Source: Halovenus rubra
GTDB taxonomy: Archaea > Halobacteriota > Halobacteria > Halobacteriales > Haloarculaceae
Direction: 5' to 3'
Length of the DNA: 36,532 nucleotides
Assembly (NCBI RefSeq): GCF_026586665.1
Contig: NZ_JAODIY010000011.1
Location: 1 to 36,532 of the forward strand
In this document: positions 7,872-15,398 of the stretch, piece by piece
Position numbering within the stretch: the stretch's first letter is position 1
Layout: every line of letters starts with the position of its first letter
The notes under the pieces: model-generated
Seen by the model: only the letters and a program-made list of their open reading frames with translations
The model's database searches: none
What the model was told of the DNA's origin: nothing
Translations under genes and position numbers: made by a program

Positions 7872-9362
7872 ATGGCGAACGATATCGACCATTTCTCGGA
7901 GAAACTGCAGGTACCGGAGGCACTGACGTTCGACGATGTGTTACTTAAGCCAAAGCAAAGCAACATCGAGCCGGATGAAGCCGGGACCACGACACAGGTT
8001 TCGACAAATGTCTCGCTTACTGTTCCTGTGCTCTCGGCAGCGATGGATACCGTGACTGAAAGCGGAATGGGGATTGCTATGGCCCGACACGGCGGTCTCG
8101 GAGTCCTTCACCGAAACATGGGGCTTGACCAGATGGTCGAAGAGATCGAGCGGGTCAAGAGCGCTGACGAACTCATCATTCCACTTGATGACGTGGTAAC
8201 CGTCGACCCAGAGACGAGCGTCCGTGAAGCAGACAACAGAATGGCCAAGGAAGGTGTCGGCGGCGCACCGGTCATCAATACAAACGGCGAAGTTCAGGGC
8301 ATTATCTCCTCGACTGACGTGCGACCACATCTCGAAGTCGACGAGAACGACCCCGTAACGAAGGCAATGACTGACGAAGTCATCACTGCACCACAGGATA
8401 TCGACGCCCGCGAGGCGTTTGACCTGATGTACGAACATAAGATTGAGCGTGTTCCGGTCGTCGACGACGAGAATCTGCTCGTCGGCTTGGTCACGATGCA
8501 GGGTATTCTCCAGCGCAGAGAGTTTGACGAAGCAGTGCGCGACGAGAACGGCAAACTGCGCATCGGTGTCGCAGTCGGTCCCTTCGAAAAAGAACGAGCC
8601 GAGGCCGCCGACGAAGCGGGTGCTGACATGCTGTTTATTGACTGTGCACACGCGCACAACGAGAGCGTCATAGAAAGTGCCCGCGACATCAAACAGCGTG
8701 TCGAGGCCGACGTAATTGTTGGAAACATCGGCACACGCGAGGCCGCCGAAGATGTAGTTGACTTTGCCGACGGCGTAAAGGTCGGCATTGGACCGGGTTC
8801 AATCTGTACAACTCGTGTCGTCACGGGCGCAGGGATGCCCCAGATTACCGCTATTGCACAGGTAGCCGATGTAGCCAGCAAACACAACGTTCCGGTCATT
8901 GCCGACGGTGGCATCCGGTACTCCGGTGACGCTATTAAGGCAATTGCCGCCGGAGCCGACGCAGTGATGCTGGGCTCGTACTTCGCTGGCACCGACGAGG
9001 CTCCCGGCCGAGTCATTACGATGAACGGTAAGAAGTACAAACAGTACCGCGGTATGGGCAGTGTCGGCGCAATGCAATCAGGTGGCGGCGACCGCTATCT
9101 CAAAGACACCGACGAAGACGATGACTACGTTCCCGAAGGTGTCGAGGCCGCAACGCCATACAAGGGAACAGTACAGTCGGAACTGAACCAACTCGTCGGC
9201 GGGATGCAGTCAGGCATGGGATATGTCGGTGCTGAGACCATCCCAGAGTTTAAACAGCGGGCCGAGTTTGTCCGCGTTTCCGCAGCTGGGCAACAAGAGA
9301 GTCACCCCCACGACGTCGTCATCACTGACGAAGCACCAAACTACAAACCGAACAGCGACTAA
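7872..9362 (+). CDS. guaB: Inosine-5'-monophosphate dehydrogenase
   Basis: The enzyme oxidises IMP to XMP with NAD+, the committed step of GMP synthesis. The 496-residue length is standard. The TIM barrel begins with LTFDDVLLKPKQSNIEPDE and continues with TVPVLSAAMDTVTESGMGIAMA. Two CBS domains occupy about residues 100-215 (IIPLDDVVTVDPETSV ... APQDIDAREAFDLMYEHKIERVPVVDDENLLVGLVT). The catalytic loop GIGPGSICTTRVVTGAG carries Cys312. The later IADGGIRYSGDAIKAIAAGADAVMLGS binds the phosphate, and KKYKQYRGMGSVGAM forms part of the flap. It is cytoplasmic. The gene appears monocistronic and probably leaderless. Confidence 0.98.
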   Translation: MANDIDHFSEKLQVPEALTFDDVLLKPKQSNIEPDEAGTTTQVSTNVSLTVPVLSAAMDTVTESGMGIAMARHGGLGVLHRNMGLDQMVEEIERVKSADELIIPLDDVVTVDPETSVREADNRMAKEGVGGAPVINTNGEVQGIISSTDVRPHLEVDENDPVTKAMTDEVITAPQDIDAREAFDLMYEHKIERVPVVDDENLLVGLVTMQGILQRREFDEAVRDENGKLRIGVAVGPFEKERAEAADEAGADMLFIDCAHAHNESVIESARDIKQRVEADVIVGNIGTREAAEDVVDFADGVKVGIGPGSICTTRVVTGAGMPQITAIAQVADVASKHNVPVIADGGIRYSGDAIKAIAAGADAVMLGSYFAGTDEAPGRVITMNGKKYKQYRGMGSVGAMQSGGGDRYLKDTDEDDDYVPEGVEAATPYKGTVQSELNQLVGGMQSGMGYVGAETIPEFKQRAEFVRVSAAGQQESHPHDVVITDEAPNYKPNSD

Positions 9363-9451
9363 GTCGATTTTCGGAGCGGGGACCCGGGTAGGTTCGTGCT
9401 GTGCAGGCAGATAGTGAAACGACAGTTCTCTGGGTTAGTCTCAGTCGAAAC

Positions 9452-9466
9452 ACACAGATTATAGGC
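9452..9466 (+). promoter_or_regulatory. Probable TATA element of the GNAT gene
   Basis: AGATTATAGG is centred about 25 bp before the ATG at 9484, the spacing expected for a leaderless haloarchaeal transcript. It supports the 9484 start over an in-frame TTG at 9481. Confidence 0.4.
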
Positions 9467-9483
9467 CGACAAACGACCTGTTG

Positions 9484-9921
9484 ATGAGTGAGTATGAAAT
9501 CCGTCGGATACCGGGGGACGGTGAGTTATCTGACGCGTACGATGTGCGCCGGGACGTGTTTATCCAGGAACAAAACGTATCCGAGGCCGAAGAGTGGGAC
9601 GGTAACGACGAGGATGCAGTGCATTATGTCGTCTACAACGACGGCTACCCAATCGGCACTGCACGGGTTCGTATTCCCGAAGCCCACCTTGCGAAAATTG
9701 AGCGGGTTGCGGTCCGGAAGCAGTACCGACAAGCGGGAATCGGACAGTTGTTGATGGAAACACTCGAAACAGAGGTCCGTGACCAGAATGCAACGGAGGT
9801 TCTCCTCCACGCACAGACGGCCGTCAAGCAGTTCTACGAGAAACTCGGGTATATGGCTACCAGTGACCACTTCAATGAGGCAGGTATTTCACACGTCAAG
9901 ATGACAAAACGCCTCGACTGA
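9484..9921 (+). CDS. GNAT family N-acetyltransferase
   Basis: This 145-residue protein has the GNAT fold with acetyl-CoA motif A at VRKQYRQAGIGQLLME (about residues 78-93, R/Q-x-x-G-x-G/A pattern). The preceding strand (LAKIERVAV) and the C-terminal FYEKLGYMATSDHFNEAGISHVKM are also typical. The N-terminal DAYDVRRDVFIQEQNVSEAEEWDGND matches the ElaA/YjcF-like subgroup, in which the substrate is usually unknown. It is cytoplasmic. The 3' end overlaps the end of the convergent ubiA-like gene by 26 bp. Confidence 0.88.
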   Translation: MSEYEIRRIPGDGELSDAYDVRRDVFIQEQNVSEAEEWDGNDEDAVHYVVYNDGYPIGTARVRIPEAHLAKIERVAVRKQYRQAGIGQLLMETLETEVRDQNATEVLLHAQTAVKQFYEKLGYMATSDHFNEAGISHVKMTKRLD

Positions 9922-10774
9922 GAAGCTCCTGTGCGAGCAACAGCAGTGCGAGCACGATGTGTTCGGCGTCGATAACAAAGCCATAGAAAAGGGGCCCTTT
10001 GTCTGTCGTCGCGACGAAACAGTAGCCAATCATATAGGCTGTATAGAGACACAAGAGGAGATAAACAGGACGGAGAACCTCAATTAGAACCAGTACAACA
10101 ACCAGAAGTGAGATAATCACGGTGGCGAACGTCGAGAGTTGGCGTGTAACTGCTGGTCCATACAGGACGGGCAGTGTCGCAATACCGGCCTCACTGTCTC
10201 CTTCGATATCTTTGATGTCGAACACCGCTGCTGCAATTGTAAGCGTCGCTGTAATGAACCCAGTCATGAACAGGATATCAGTGGTCCAGAGAACGTCGTA
10301 GTAGACACCAACACCCGCGGGGATGAGTCCCCAAGAGAAACCGACCAAGAGATTCTTCACCAGCAGGACTCTCTTTAACCCTACTACGGAGTATAGCACC
10401 GCGACAAGCAGGGGGATGACCATTGCAGGTGCACCAGAAATCGATTGCTGGATTGCGAGACTGGTCGCGAGGAAGTAAAGAAGGCCACCGATAGCCAGCA
10501 GCCCTTTGCCATACTGTTCAACGAACGAGGCCCGTTTCGGGATGTTTTGTTTGTCCTCAGTAAAGTCCGAGATTCGGTTGTACGAGTAAACGAACATCGC
10601 CGCTGCAAAGACAATAAACAAGGGAAGCGAGTCAATCGATAGCTCGGCCAGAATAATCGTCGAGACGGCGACACTGGTTGCAGAGACCGAAATAAGGATA
10701 TTCGAGTGAACAAGCGTCTCAATCAGAGACAAGAAAGCGTCCGGGATATCTTCGAAGCCAATATCAGTTCCCAT
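9896..10774 (-). CDS. UbiA family prenyltransferase
   Basis: The 292-residue integral membrane enzyme would transfer a prenyl chain to an acceptor. Two Asp-rich motifs bind the diphosphate through Mg2+: NRISDFTEDKQN in the first half and DIKDIEGDSEAG in the second. Eight or nine hydrophobic helices surround them. Candidate roles in haloarchaea include menaquinone synthesis, geranylgeranylglyceryl-phosphate modification, or heme/carotenoid-related prenylation. The sequence alone does not decide. I place the start at the ATG at 10774 rather than 90 bp upstream, because the extra N-terminal residues (MFLSFIVDPVSCDVFF) lack family character. Its upstream side faces the left end of the integrated element. 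Confidence 0.85.
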   Translation of the reverse strand: MGTDIGFEDIPDAFLSLIETLVHSNILISVSATSVAVSTIILAELSIDSLPLFIVFAAAMFVYSYNRISDFTEDKQNIPKRASFVEQYGKGLLAIGGLLYFLATSLAIQQSISGAPAMVIPLLVAVLYSVVGLKRVLLVKNLLVGFSWGLIPAGVGVYYDVLWTTDILFMTGFITATLTIAAAVFDIKDIEGDSEAGIATLPVLYGPAVTRQLSTFATVIISLLVVVLVLIEVLRPVYLLLCLYTAYMIGYCFVATTDKGPLFYGFVIDAEHIVLALLLLAQELLSRGVLSS

Positions 10775-10951
10775 TGGGTGTAGCTCGTAGCGTTGTACCG
10801 TTGGATACGTGCCTACAAAAAAGACATCACAGGACACAGGATCAACAATAAAAGAGAGAAACACCAGCGACAGTCCATTGACGCGTCACGTTGGTTCCTT
10901 GCAAAACAGGACGACACTCACTGTCTCGTTATTAGTTGACAGACCGTTGTA

Positions 10952-10972
10952 CGGGCCGGGCGCGATTTGAAC
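10952..10972. repeat. attL: 21-bp copy of the tRNA-Lys 3' end
   Basis: The 21 bases beginning CGGGCCGG and ending TTTGAAC are identical to 15325-15345. That segment of the intact tRNA-Lys gene runs from discriminator base G73 through the T loop. Looser similarity continues beyond it (GACACGACC here versus ACGCGACC there). It lies 95 bp before the integrase ATG, as is usual for tyrosine-integrase elements integrated at a tRNA 3' end. Confidence 0.85.
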
Positions 10973-10988
10973 GACACGACCTCCCTCC

Positions 10989-11023
10989 GGCGGTTTCACC
11001 GCCTCCGGGAACCGCAGATGCGG
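10989..11023. repeat. Two small hairpins between attL and the integrase
   Basis: GGCGG-TTTCA-CCGCC (10989-11003) and CCGCA-GA-TGCGG (11012-11023) form adjacent 5-bp stems. They may be integrase arm sites, a leader structure or chance. The region is GC-rich. Confidence 0.35.
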
Positions 11024-11066
11024 ATACCTGAGGGTCGCTGTTGGTGGACTGAGCGCAAGACCCACC

Positions 11067-12089
11067 ATGACGACTAACCTCAAACCACTCGAACCGCAAG
11101 AAGCGAAGGACTGGTATCTCGAAAACCGCCGTGGCGAACTTGCCGATGCTACCTATCGAGCGCACAAGTACTGACTCTCTCCATTCGTTGAATGGTGCAA
11201 CGGCGAAGGAAACGTGAGCAATATGAACGACCTCAGTGGTCGGTACTTCCACCAGTACAAGAAATGGCGACGGGAGAAAGGTGACTGCAACAAGGTCACG
11301 ATGGCGACGCAACTGAGTACACTCAAAGTCTTCATCAACTTCTGCGAGAGCATTGACGCCGTCCAGCCTGGACTGTCCGATTACATCGACCCTCCGACGA
11401 TGAAGAACAAGGAGGACGTGAACGACGACTACATAGACACCGACACCGCGCAGGCCATCATCGAATACCAGCGGAACTTCAACTACTCTCAACGCGAACA
11501 CGTCATCTTCGAGCTACTGTGGCACACCGGGATGAGGAATGGCGCGCTCCGGGCTATCGACCTTGGCGACTACAACAACGAGGAACGAACTCTCGAAGTG
11601 CATCACCGTCCGGACGAAGAAACTCCGCTAAAGAACGGGAAAGAAGGCGAACGTGTCGTCTCTCTCAAGCCGAAAGTCAACCAGATTGTGCAGGACTACA
11701 TCGACCATCATCGCTTCGCCAAAACGGACGAGTTTGGACGTAAACCGTTACTGACGACACGCCAAGGCCGTATCTCAAAGACCTCTATCCGAAGCAACTG
11801 CTATCGAGCTACCCGACCCTGCGATTATGGACTGGACTGCCCACACGGCCGAGACCCCCAAAACTGTGATGCGGCAAATTCCTATCACGCCGCCTCGAAG
11901 TGTCCATCATCCCATGCTTCCCATTCACTGCGGAAAGGTGCAATTACCCACGCTCGCCGCAGTGAAATCCCCATTGAGGCAGTTTCTGAACGAATGGACG
12001 TGAGCGCAGACGTGTTGAAGAAGCATTACGACAAGCGCACGAAGAAGCAGGAGATGAAGAACCGCCGAGGATACTTCGACAATATCTGA
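11067..12089 (+). pseudogene. Tyrosine recombinase (integrase) interrupted by one in-frame TGA
   Basis: Translation from the ATG at 11067 gives MTTNLKPLEPQEAKDWYLEN, then RAHKY followed by TGA at 11172-11174, then LSPFVEWCNGEGNVSN in the same frame to 12089. The full product would be 340 residues. The N-terminal SAM-like DNA-binding domain spans about residues 10-105. The catalytic domain has Arg157 (HTGMRNGALR), His286 and Arg289 (HSLRKGAI) and Tyr321 (LKKHYDKR), so the active site is intact. Relatives, as I recall them, have Arg at the stop, which points to a CGA-to-TGA change. An internal GTG at 11214 or ATG at 11224 could restart translation, but would lose part of the DNA-binding domain. 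Integration was most likely into tRNA-Lys by this enzyme. Confidence 0.85.
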
Positions 12090-12160
12090 CCCATGGAGGG
12101 CAATAAACAAAGGGGCATCTTCCGTGTCAAGCTACCACAGTAGCAAGCCACCGCCCAGAA

Positions 12161-12955
12161 TCACCAACCACCGGAGAATTCGCACTTTAGACCTACTTTC
12201 TCCGGAAGTTCCGATACATATCGTTGCTTATCTTCGGCGCTTAGACCTGTGAATAAGTAATAGCCACCAGACACTCGCCGTTGTCCACTCATATTGGAGC
12301 CGTCCGGATGTTCGGGTTTGTCACTGAGGAGCGCACGACTCCCGCGTCCTGTACCCGGAATGTAGGGAATCTCAATCTCATCCACAAGCCCCTCCTCCCC
12401 AATTAGGTAGTTCGCGAGCGAAGCCATTGCGTCAGATTGCACGTCCTCATACTGATGGCTGTAAGTACGTGAAGATTCGAACTTGGTATTTTCTAACAGC
12501 GAGGCTCTTGCCTGGCGAATCAGGAACTAGCGATTCAAAGAATTACAGCCACCAGTATCAGTCACTCGAAATACCTCTCCTCCATTTCGGGTGAGGCGAA
12601 TCACATATTTCTCGTTTTCTAATTCGTCGTCACCCTTGGGTGACTCTCGAACAACAGTTGTCCGGTGTGCTTGTTCCTCCAAAGTCTCAATCAGGTCATC
12701 GACGAATCCTTTCGCCTCATCTTCGACCTGTTGTGATACCGCGTTTCCAGCTACTTCTGTAACCAAAGCCGTCACGTCTTCTGCGAGGTCTTCTTTGTTC
12801 CCTCGGAGTGATGCGACCGCGTCATGCACTGCCTGAATCTTCTCTGCAATTTGTCGGGACTCCCCAGAGTCAATGGACTTACGCGAAAGAGCCTTCGAGC
12901 AAGCAGGGGAGTTCCAGCACTGTCGTAAGAATTCCGTAGCGTAGCTCATAGTCAT
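12161..12955 (-). pseudogene. Hypothetical protein gene split by an in-frame TAG (codon 143)
   Basis: The first part, 142 residues from ATG 12955, begins MTMSYATEFLRQCWNSPACS and is preceded by GAGGT at a fair distance for a ribosome site. Amber codon TAG at 12529-12527 follows NSLNR. The same frame then stays open for 121 further residues (FLIRQARASLLENTKFE ... YYLFTGLSAEDKQRYVSELPEKVGLKCEFSGGW) to 12161. Read through, the product is about 263 residues. I do not recognise the family. The N-terminal half is helical and charged; the C-terminal half has a short glycine-rich beta segment. A GTG at 12442 could start a separate 93-residue product, but unbroken reading across the TAG argues for one gene with a nonsense change. 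Confidence 0.6.
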
Positions 12956-13263
12956 CTCAGACCTCTTACTTTCTACGTCTGACTACGTCGCAGGGGAAAA
13001 TCGTAAAGTAACGTCTGCTAATTCCCCCTCCATGCAGAGAATCGTGTGGTTCGACTTCCAGAGTTGGTGTTTGACGGTCAGAACAAGCTGAGACGATAGG
13101 CAAGATGACTATGGACTATCAGACGGAATACCCTCATAGCGAAGACCTCGCGTAATGAGTCTCACCTAAGCCGTTCGTGAATCCATCTGTCTCACATCTG
13201 CTCGAAGTAAGGGACTGCCGTCTCGGCGGAGAGGAGTTTCCGTTTGATAGCACATAGTCATCT
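12932..13263. repeat. Three copies of a 26-bp sequence, two in inverted orientation
   Basis: The 26-bp unit starts AGATGACTATG and ends ACGGAA. Copies are at 13103-13128 (+), 13238-13263 (- strand) and 12932-12957 (- strand, the start of the amber-split gene). The first two match at 23 of 26 positions and can form a stem around 109 bases. The third matches the second at 21 of 26. All three would encode MTM-x-Y-x-T-E. They may be fossil gene starts or operator/origin-like repeats. Confidence 0.65.
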
Positions 13264-13423
13264 CAGCATGGCAATCCCCTGTCCCCTCAAAAAAATGAAT
13301 TAGTTGGGTTGATGTGCGATTTCTCTACTGGTACGCTCTTATCTGAACAACTCAGCAGGGTCAGTCGTAATACACCTCATGTCCAGCGCAATAACAATGA
13401 TTAGGGAAGGTAGATGGGGCATT
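12956..13423. other. Repeat-rich gap within the integrated element
   Basis: No intact gene is seen in 468 bp. The two fossil starts of the repeat family open short frames of 16 codons (+, from 13105) and 31 codons (- strand, from 13262), both soon stopped. The remainder is AT-rich near 13290-13320 and holds the end of the lipoprotein transcript. Confidence 0.5.
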
Positions 13424-14014
13424 TTACCTGAAAAGTTCGTAATCCAAAGTAACATCAACTCTGTCATTGTCGAAATTTGTAGGCGGAGATGTACGACCCT
13501 TATTAGTATTATCTATGACAAGACAGTACTCAGTGTCACCACTGAGTTGAACTTCATTATTTGCAGATAGGGTATCAAGTTCACTTCCCGCCGGATAGTA
13601 TTCCCACTCTGTTCCATCTTCGAAATACCGGAAATTTGCACTGTCCATCAGTATCACATCAATTCTTATATCATTCTGAACTCTGGCGTTGTAGGATAGT
13701 GTCGCTGCCTGTCTCGGACTAAATTGCAAATATTGGTAATAATCCTCGTTCAAATCATATGTTTCCCTCCCTTGATTGAACAATTCACTCCTGGTACTAT
13801 CGGAAGGAAAGTCATCTTCAATATCAGGAACACCATCCCCATCCGAATCCACAGGGGTATCTTCTCCATCAGAATTCCCGTTACCACCACTAAGACTACC
13901 GTCGTTTCCATCGTCATTATTCTCCCCTTCGGTACATCCTGCGAAGCCGCCTACCATACCCACCGAGATTCCTGCGAGAAACCGTCGTCGAGTCTTTCTC
14001 AGTTTATCACCCAT
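13424..14014 (-). CDS. Tat lipoprotein with a calcium-binding-type aspartate repeat
   Basis: The 196-residue protein starts at the ATG at 14014. Its Tat signal has TRRRFLAG (RR at residues 9-11) and a lipobox ending FAGC (Cys27). A Gly/Asn/Asp-rich linker (NDDGNDGSLSGG) leads to DSDGDGVPDIEDDFPSD near residues 55-71, a thrombospondin type 3-like D-x-D-G-D-G-x-x-D calcium motif. A beta-rich C-terminal domain of about 100 residues (YYQYLQFSPRQAATLSYNARV ... TEYCLVIDNTNKG) resembles haloarchaeal surface domains that follow such linkers. It should be anchored outside the cell. It is the only long intact minus-strand gene of the element. A longer start at 14062 would put 16 residues before the Tat motif and is less likely. 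Confidence 0.8.
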   Translation of the reverse strand: MGDKLRKTRRRFLAGISVGMVGGFAGCTEGENNDDGNDGSLSGGNGNSDGEDTPVDSDGDGVPDIEDDFPSDSTRSELFNQGRETYDLNEDYYQYLQFSPRQAATLSYNARVQNDIRIDVILMDSANFRYFEDGTEWEYYPAGSELDTLSANNEVQLSGDTEYCLVIDNTNKGRTSPPTNFDNDRVDVTLDYELFR

Positions 14015-14232
14015 GTTTACCCCATTATTTGGTTTATACTTAATATTAATCAAAGATGACATCTAAAATGTTCTTATAGAATTTTGATACTTATATCTTC
14101 CTTAACTTGCCTTAGTCTTATTAGTATACTATTTACTTTCTGTATTATAATGAGAACAGACACAAACTGCCAGTAGGCAAGGTGTCTTACAGCGGTAGAT
14201 TCTTTAGTTGAGTGTGATAATTTCTCTTTTGT

Positions 14233-14765
14233 ATGAGTAGAGGCCAGCTTGAAAGCTATCTCGCAAGTGATGAAGAACTATTACTCGTATTTATCGCGGA
14301 GAGCGTTGTTCAAGGTAAAGATGGCCAGAATGGCAATCACGATTTCTCTGAATCGGAATATACCTTCGGCGCCACAGACCGAAGAGTCGTCTATTTGACT
14401 GAGTCCGGGGGTTTCAAAGATATTGATTATCAGCATGTTAGTTCAATAGAGACCGAAGTGGAGGAAGACAATTCCGACCAAGGGACTGTTTAGCTGTGGG
14501 TGTCTGTGGGGGTGTCATGTTACTTGGAGGGTTGAGTGCACTCGGTGACGAGCCGGGTACTGCGTTAGGGGGGCTTCTTTTGGGAGCTGGTCTCTTGGCT
14601 CTTGGAGTGAAAATATTACAAGATGCAGAGACTACCGAGAAGCAGAAAATCAAGTTCATTACTGGCGACGAGGCCCACCAACAAATCGAAGTTACACTGG
14701 GTTCAGGCGTCGATGACAGCGTTGGCGCAGAACTGAGTCGAATTCTACGTGAGCAAAGGTCATGA
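14233..14765 (+). pseudogene. PH domain-like membrane protein, split by a frameshift
   Basis: Two abutting frames make one expected protein of about 177 residues. The first frame (14233-14493) has MSRGQLESYLASDEELLLVF, then EYTFGATDRRVVYLTESGGFKDIDYQHVSSIETE, the start of a bacterial-type PH domain, and ends at TAG (14491-14493). The second frame (to 14765) has a hydrophobic hairpin (VCGGVMLLGGLSALGDEPGTALGGLLLGAGLLALGVKIL) followed by KQKIKFITGDEAHQQIEVTLG, the closing strands of the same fold. A one-base loss near 14486-14490 (GGACTGTTTAGC) would explain the split. The alternative is two separately translated parts, with GTG at 14496 starting the second. The next gene overlaps it by 4 bp (ATGA). 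Its role is unknown. Confidence 0.6.
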
Positions 14766-15085
14766 AATTCGATTTATTGTTATGTCATGGTAAATCTGAG
14801 CGTTGTCTCAGCTACAGTGGTTACCAATTTCCTCTTTGTACTCGATGTACAGGCATCCTCATAGGATGCGTAATTGCACTTCTAATTGAGATAATTGTAG
14901 GATTGCCTCCCATCATTTTTCTCCCACTGTACATCCTCTTGGGATTTCCTGCAACAATTGATGGAATAACTCAACTAATGCGGAACAGAGAAAGCAATAA
15001 CCAAACTCGTCTTATCACGGGCATAGTTGGTGCCTTAGGGTTTATGCTATTCTTCCGGACCCTCAGATTCTTACTAAGGCTCTGA
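14762..15085 (+). CDS. DUF2085 family membrane protein
   Basis: The 107-residue product carries the signature of DUF2085: LLCHGKSERCLSYSGYQFPLCTRCTGI near residues 6-32, with four conserved cysteines (C8, C15, C26 and C29), followed by three hydrophobic helices. The cysteines probably bind a metal or form disulfides at the membrane. Its function is unknown. The gene overlaps the PH-like gene by 4 bp, so the two are transcribed together. Codon usage is AT-rich compared with the chromosome, in line with acquisition. It is the last gene of the element before attR. Confidence 0.85.
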   Translation: MKFDLLLCHGKSERCLSYSGYQFPLCTRCTGILIGCVIALLIEIIVGLPPIIFLPLYILLGFPATIDGITQLMRNRESNNQTRLITGIVGALGFMLFFRTLRFLLRL

Positions 15086-15324
15086 ATTACAAGTGCTATA
15101 CTCATATTGAACGATTTATAGTGAATTACTTCAAGAACACAGTGGTATCTACGTCAGGCTAATATCGGCTAAGATGCAACCACAGGACAGCGCGCACCCC
15201 AAACACATACGAAACGAACTAACACCAAAATCCCGGTCATATCCGAACCTTATAGTGACTCTAACCCTTACAAAGAGACAGTTCAGCCGCTAACAGTCTG
15301 ACTCTGTATCCATCGTTCAGAAAG

Positions 15325-15345
15325 CGGGCCGGGCGCGATTTGAAC
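15325..15345. repeat. attR: 3' part of the intact tRNA-Lys
   Basis: These 21 bases run from the discriminator base (G73, complement at 15325) into the T loop of tRNA-Lys and are identical to the copy at 10952-10972. The intact tRNA is on this side, so the element lies downstream (3') of the tRNA. Confidence 0.85.
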
Positions 15346-15398
15346 ACGCGACCGACGGATTAAGAGTCCGTCGCTCTGCCAAACTGAGCTACCGGCCC
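15325..15398 (-). tRNA. trnK: tRNA-Lys (CTT)
   Basis: On the minus strand GGGCCGG (15398-15392) pairs with CCGGCCC (15332-15326), with discriminator G at 15325. The D arm is GCTC...GAGC, the anticodon stem GACGG/CCGTC, and the anticodon loop CTCTTAA with anticodon CTT. The T arm is GCGTG-TTCAAAT-CGCGC. It is 74 nt long, has no intron and does not encode CCA. It is the attachment site of the element to its left. Confidence 0.96.

Follow-up and report, generated by a model that had tools for sequence, protein, structure and literature searches.

The window analysed here, a 36,532-nucleotide stretch of the Halovenus rubra genome (NZ_JAODIY010000011.1), carries at positions 10952-15345 an element of 4.4 kb that is bracketed by exact 21-bp copies of the 3′ end of tRNA-Lys(CTT). 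The element is genuine mobile DNA, although decayed and of a fairly ordinary kind, and very probably represents a degenerate, likely immobile copy of a group of small (4-15 kb) haloarchaeal integrative plasmids that insert at the 3′ end of this tRNA gene. The initial annotation, made from the sequence of the window, had proposed an element integrated at the tRNA-Lys 3′ end, and eight complete relatives at the same tRNA, together with an empty site in a genus mate (G002), bear this out. The features of the element and its target are as follows.

10952-10972: attL core, 21 bp, exact direct repeat, positioned relative to the integrase as in relatives
10973-11066: left arm, conserved, running from attL to the integrase (ten-locus alignment)
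11067-12089, forward strand: tyrosine integrase gene, SNJ2 family, nonsense codon 36 at 11172-11174 (Pfam Phage_integrase 1.5e-9; 80-93% to relatives with an intact frame)
12161-12955, reverse strand: remnant of an HsdR_N-type protein gene, C-terminal part only, without the nuclease domain and with a repeat inserted (tblastn to haloarchaeal plasmids; alignment; HSDR_N_2 position in a relative)
12446-12561: MITE-like 116-bp repeat with terminal inverted repeats, holding an in-frame TAG at 12527-12529 (nine matches in the genome; inverted repeat I2)
13424-14062, reverse strand: lipoprotein gene, open, with a twin-arginine-like start and lipobox (FAGC) (ORF; 33% homologue in the Halorubrum Hd13 element)
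14233-14765, forward strand: PH-domain membrane protein gene, frameshifted, halves 14233-14493 and 14496-14765 (bPH_3 9.8e-5; alignment to one 212-aa protein)
14762-15085, forward strand: DUF2085 membrane protein gene, open (Pfam 2e-23)
15166-15324: right arm, conserved, adjoining attR (blastn to nine loci and nine-locus alignment)
15325-15345: attR core, 21 bp, 3′ end of tRNA-Lys, exact direct repeat
15324-15398, reverse strand: tRNA-Lys(CTT), target gene (ARAGORN; tRNA-Lys in the same place at eight related loci)

Boundaries and empty site at tRNA-Lys

The direct repeat is the 3′ end of the tRNA and the tRNA gene itself is kept whole, while the chance expectation for an exact 21-bp copy within the window is about 3e-8. 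The integrase starts 94 bp inside attL, and the boundaries, the tRNA and the integrase position agree with one another, as the initial annotation had held, with the same geometry recurring in the eight complete relatives. A 20-bp att core is present in only 17 of 146 genomes of the family, at one to five copies each, and each site that was examined proved to be a tRNA-Lys gene or a short fragment immediately downstream of one; the reversed 20-mer, used as a control, has no match in the same 146 genomes.

The left neighbour of the element is UbiA-like and the right neighbour MscS-like; both genes are kept in genus mates, and without the element the order in the window would be UbiA-tRNA-Lys-MscS. 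The corresponding empty site, which had been suggested as a check, is found in G002, a different species of the genus, where UbiA and tRNA-Lys are adjacent and carry no insertion. The UbiA codon corresponding to residue 44 lies 229 bp from the att core in G002 and at nearly the same distance, 218 bp, from attL in the window. The bases just outside attL (GTTGTAC) resemble those that precede the tRNA-Lys core in G002, G004, G014 and G017 (CTGTAC, GTTGCAC, GTGTAC), and the bases adjoining attR within the element are similar in the alignment to those at the right ends of other members, so the insertion is polarised as expected.

The window genome (G000) also contains a second tRNA-Lys-like gene (G000:C48:138991-139064), 88% identical and with the same 20-bp core, which is a possible second target; a single copy of the core was found on its contig. 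At least six other family genomes have, downstream of tRNA-Lys, tandem arrays in which the 20-nt tRNA-Lys 3′ end recurs exactly at intervals of 123-171 bp (G004:C1:1167762-1168057, G007:C67:3392-3548, G011:C73:1164-1312, G014:C133:8915-9057, G017:C133:4686-4830 and G018:C1:2625043-2625201; L069-L072, L083, L147), and such copies are additionally present at G022:C1:1630268-1630426. Among the units looked at, the 20-nt copy stands at the head of a near-palindrome of about 80-95 nt, for which folding as DNA gave a z of -4.4 for one 83-nt unit and -2.0 for another. These arrays, which have no integrase between the tandem copies, were considered as scars of the tRNA-Lys elements and rejected, as they share little beyond the att core with the right end of that family.

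A family of related elements and its integrase

Integrases 80-93% identical to that of the window occur in nine other haloarchaea. A genome scan with the integrase identified Natrinema pallidum DSM 3751, Halolamina rubra CBA1107 and Halorubrum sp. Hd13 (elements L197-L199), along with Halorubrum cibi, all at 91-93% over the open part, and five more loci came from 392 genomes across the order and from 170 belonging to one family, with two or three matches that appear to repeat named loci. The Halorubrum cibi locus is truncated where its contig stops; the other eight are complete, and each of them lies at tRNA-Lys(CTT) between matching att repeats. A search allowing five mismatches recovered the repeat in seven, and for L199 the alignment shows a left copy that differs at one base. 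The expectation that related elements would be found at tRNA-Lys in other haloarchaea was therefore realised, with the same tRNA and the same geometry. The complete relatives measure 3.95, 5.26, 5.51, 5.99, 6.19, 6.52, 7.70 and 14.5 kb, their integrases start about 100-112 bp inside attL, and they follow a common plan of attL, integrase, variable cargo and conserved right end.

In L198, L208, L210 and L211, the host tRNA-Lys has a T-arm variant, and both att copies carry that same variant, as would follow if recombination were site-specific and used a core common to both. Similarity at the DNA level between the window and its relatives (blastn) is confined to a left part made up of attL and the integrase (78-84%) and to the right end together with the tRNA (78-86%), and the middles of the related elements are unrelated to that of the window. 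The integrases from tRNA-Lys loci form one clade in the tree (support 100/99). For most pairs, dS is about 0.6-1.4 and dN/dS about 0.05, which points to an old family under strong constraint instead of one recent burst of transfer. Membership of this family can be defined by attL, an integrase of the clade, the conserved right arm and tRNA-Lys(CTT), all of which the window element has; the replication-type gene found in seven of the eight complete relatives is absent from the window and was not used as a condition of membership. At L207, L199, L200, L197 and L210, about 10-50 bp of right-arm sequence of the element's type recur just outside attL, as though the right end of a previous element had stayed in place; the window has no such repeat.

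The window integrase, with its SAM-like and Phage_integrase domains, falls within the SNJ2 family, for which at least 30% identity over 60% of the length has been proposed (PMC8371274); it is 40.6% identical to the SNJ2 integrase over the whole query and 48% identical to that of pHK2. The initial annotation could match the element to nothing nameable, a view that the relatives overturn, since they place it as a small integrative plasmid with an SNJ2-family integrase, which is what the relatives themselves look like. As in SNJ2, HHPV4, HRPV9 and pHK2, the integrase is of a homologous classical type whose gene stays whole. In contrast to those carriers, the window integrase belongs to another clade, and the element has a 21-bp att at tRNA-Lys, where integrated SNJ2 virus has a 13-bp att site (PMC8371274), and no virion genes. 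Elements L197-L199 are the most alike, sharing the tRNA, the att geometry and the right end, with integrases 90-92% identical, but they differ in having an intact integrase, a replication-type gene, other cargo and a length of 5.5-7.7 kb compared to 4.4 kb.

Integrative plasmids, prophages and remnants at tRNA genes, decayed ones included, are known from haloarchaea (PMC3119063). The 6.7-kb tRNA-Thr1 remnant of Haloquadratum resembles the window element in its decayed content and in the duplication of the tRNA 3′ end at its far end, although it has no integrase nearby, whereas the nearly whole integrase of the window identifies the family (PMC3119063). No description of the tRNA-Lys family, including L197-L199, was found in the open papers searched, and its novelty is provisional.

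The middles of the relatives hold two kinds of large protein with a putative role in replication. Primase-like proteins of 539-548 aa are encoded in L197, L207 and L209 (PHROG primase 1.4e-7 for L197); a structure predicted for the primase-like protein is of low confidence and was given no weight. Proteins of 614-760 aa have a P-loop-like motif in L198, L199 and L210, with a distant relative in L208. Three of these are related to proteins of 9-11-kb haloarchaeal plasmids, and that of L198 is 38-39% identical to proteins of free plasmids of 8.9 kb and 10.8 kb from Halorientalis and Halomarina. The replication-type gene reads from the right end towards the integrase in six of the seven elements, while in L210 it runs in the opposite direction and lies in the left half of the element. 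The smallest relative, L211 (3.95 kb), has an integrase, a lipoprotein and, in place of the large replication-type gene, a gene for a 262-aa protein related to a viral PHROG of unknown function. From a reading of the ORFs, six of the eight relatives, like the window, encode a protein whose start is lipobox-like. In L210 (14.5 kb, reverse complement), three consecutive ORFs of 500, 266 and 984 aa at 9243-14485 have sizes and an order that suggest a type I restriction-modification system, a candidate defence cargo.

Lesions and cargo of the window copy

The frame of the window integrase is interrupted by one TGA, at codon 36, which is a sense codon in the intact related integrases, and the catalytic part is otherwise open and conserved, in agreement with the early TGA and intact catalytic residues first noted. 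Residues 4-112 match PDB 3nrw, a structure of the N-terminal part of an integrase from a haloarchaeon, so the stop falls in the core-binding domain. The ORF downstream of the stop (291 aa) would lack part of this domain. A conserved internal restart was rejected, as the methionine at residue 53 is absent in L209 and L211 and a restart there would cut into the 3nrw-matching domain. The dN/dS of the window integrase is 0.043-0.054, equal to that of intact copies (0.03-0.10), which indicates that inactivation was recent. There is no second integrase of the tRNA-Lys clade in the window genome, where the closest other integrase is 45% identical and lies outside the clade, so the element is probably trapped, as originally suspected; help in trans from another integrase in the genome looks unlikely from these comparisons, and excision would then be impossible.

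The gene first described as split by an amber codon does contain an in-frame TAG, but the split is no point mutation, as the TAG lies inside an inserted 116-bp repeat in a truncated HsdR_N-type gene; amber recoding of this gene was rejected on the same ground. The proposed database search with the split protein returned HsdR_N-type proteins of haloarchaeal plasmids (tblastn, 45-51% to the best), and none of the relatives was found to hold the PH/DUF2085 pair. In a Halolamina relative of the HsdR_N-type protein, the nuclease domain spans aa 26-131 and is absent from the window remnant.

The 116-bp repeat has nine matches in the window genome, three of the others being 98-100% identical, at window 12446-12561 and on contigs C8, C48, C45 (two), C1 and C47, with partial matches on C3 and C34; more distant copies occur in G007, G010, G011 and G135, genus mates among them. 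Its ends are about CTSATACTGRTGGCTGTAA. It has features of a MITE, in that it is short, has terminal inverted repeats and exists as several near-identical dispersed copies, and no target-site duplication is consistent across the copies. A degenerate stretch upstream of the HsdR_N remnant (12932-13266) contains a separate 10-nt motif, AGATGACTAT, three times and in both orientations, within longer imperfect repeats.

Both halves of the PH gene align, in order, to a single 212-aa ORF of G030, and this collinearity supports the frameshift described at the outset. The lipoprotein and DUF2085 genes were likewise correctly recognised, and both are open. The mature lipoprotein is predicted to form a GOLD-like β-sandwich (core pLDDT mostly around 80; Foldseek E 2e-4), a predicted fold that does not fix its function. 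No relative of the element with the window cargo genes together was found. In ten family genomes, relatives of the PH, DUF2085, HsdR_N and lipoprotein genes have no close relative of the window integrase beside them, and one lipoprotein relative has an integrase of 40% identity nearby. As the initial annotation stated, no replication gene is visible: neither a replication-type gene nor a remnant of one was found in the window element, which reads as loss or absence when set against seven of eight relatives.

Origin of the element and competing explanations

Site-specific integration followed by decay would account for these features. Judging from gene order, the circle of an intact member would hold the att core between a divergent integrase gene and (in most members, beyond the right arm) a replication gene. 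The SNJ2-like integrase would carry out recombination between this core and the tRNA 3′ end; the copy from the element would restore the tRNA and the displaced one would become attL, to give the usual integrated order attL-int-cargo-rep-right arm-attR/tRNA. In the window copy, the integrase would then have acquired its stop at codon 36, the replication gene would have gone, the PH gene would have been frameshifted, and the HsdR_N-type gene would have lost its nuclease domain and taken up the MITE-like repeat, leaving a fossil.

The replication gene was more likely lost than never present, given that seven of eight relatives carry one. It is improbable that the window holds a minimal cassette of integrase and cargo that never had a replication gene, moved by recombination alone (aided by a relative, or carried on chromosomal DNA that was transferred) and lost its integrase later. 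Such a cassette would explain why the window has no rep remnant, has a parallel in L211, which is without a large replication gene, and is compatible with the integrase having until recently been as constrained as in intact copies. It sits poorly with the gene content of the other seven complete relatives and with the remaining window lesions, which show decay under way, and the 262-aa protein of L211 with its viral PHROG match may itself act in replication. The further proposal that the window element and L211 are a distinct form, minimal integrase and lipoprotein cassettes at tRNA-Lys that spread without replicating, through gene transfer and the integrases of co-resident relatives, is unlikely to hold.

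The integrase stop and the PH frameshift are each seen in a single assembly and could be sequencing errors. It is nevertheless unlikely that both arose in assembly and that the element can still move: they are single-position changes, and the integrase is constrained as in intact copies, but the repeat insertion, the missing nuclease domain and the missing replication gene are independent structural lesions that show decay.

An origin as the remnant of a pleolipovirus provirus is suggested by the related integrases of SNJ2, HHPV4 and HRPV9 and by the best matches in the phage collection, which are pleolipovirus-type integrases at 40-41%. We consider it very improbable and rejected a virus origin, as neither the window nor the eight relatives have a recognisable virion (spike or membrane-protein) or NTPase gene, in keeping with the capsid gene reported missing, and viral contigs scanned with the integrase, the integrase alignment, DUF2085 and the lipoprotein yielded no relative and no integrase of the tRNA-Lys clade. 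This clade is also separate from SNJ2 and pHK2 in the tree, and the SNJ2 integrase ends, and does not start, close to the end of its record. Finally, the tandem 20-mers lacking an integrase in other family genomes offer a precedent for the left 21-bp copy being an unrelated tRNA-fragment duplication, with chromosomal accretion of the genes between, but this is extremely unlikely given eight other loci with the same order of att, integrase, right arm and tRNA and an attL matching the host tRNA variant, the uninterrupted site in G002, and a window without the palindromes that follow the short repeats.

The probable decayed integrative plasmid of the window points to a compact and testable haloarchaeal family, with one integrase clade, one tRNA target and fixed arms, in whose middle replication genes and cargo are exchanged, a lipoprotein gene usually being present. 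The window copy provides a picture of such an element after losing its integrase and replication gene, and the intact relatives could be site-specific integration tools for haloarchaeal genetics.
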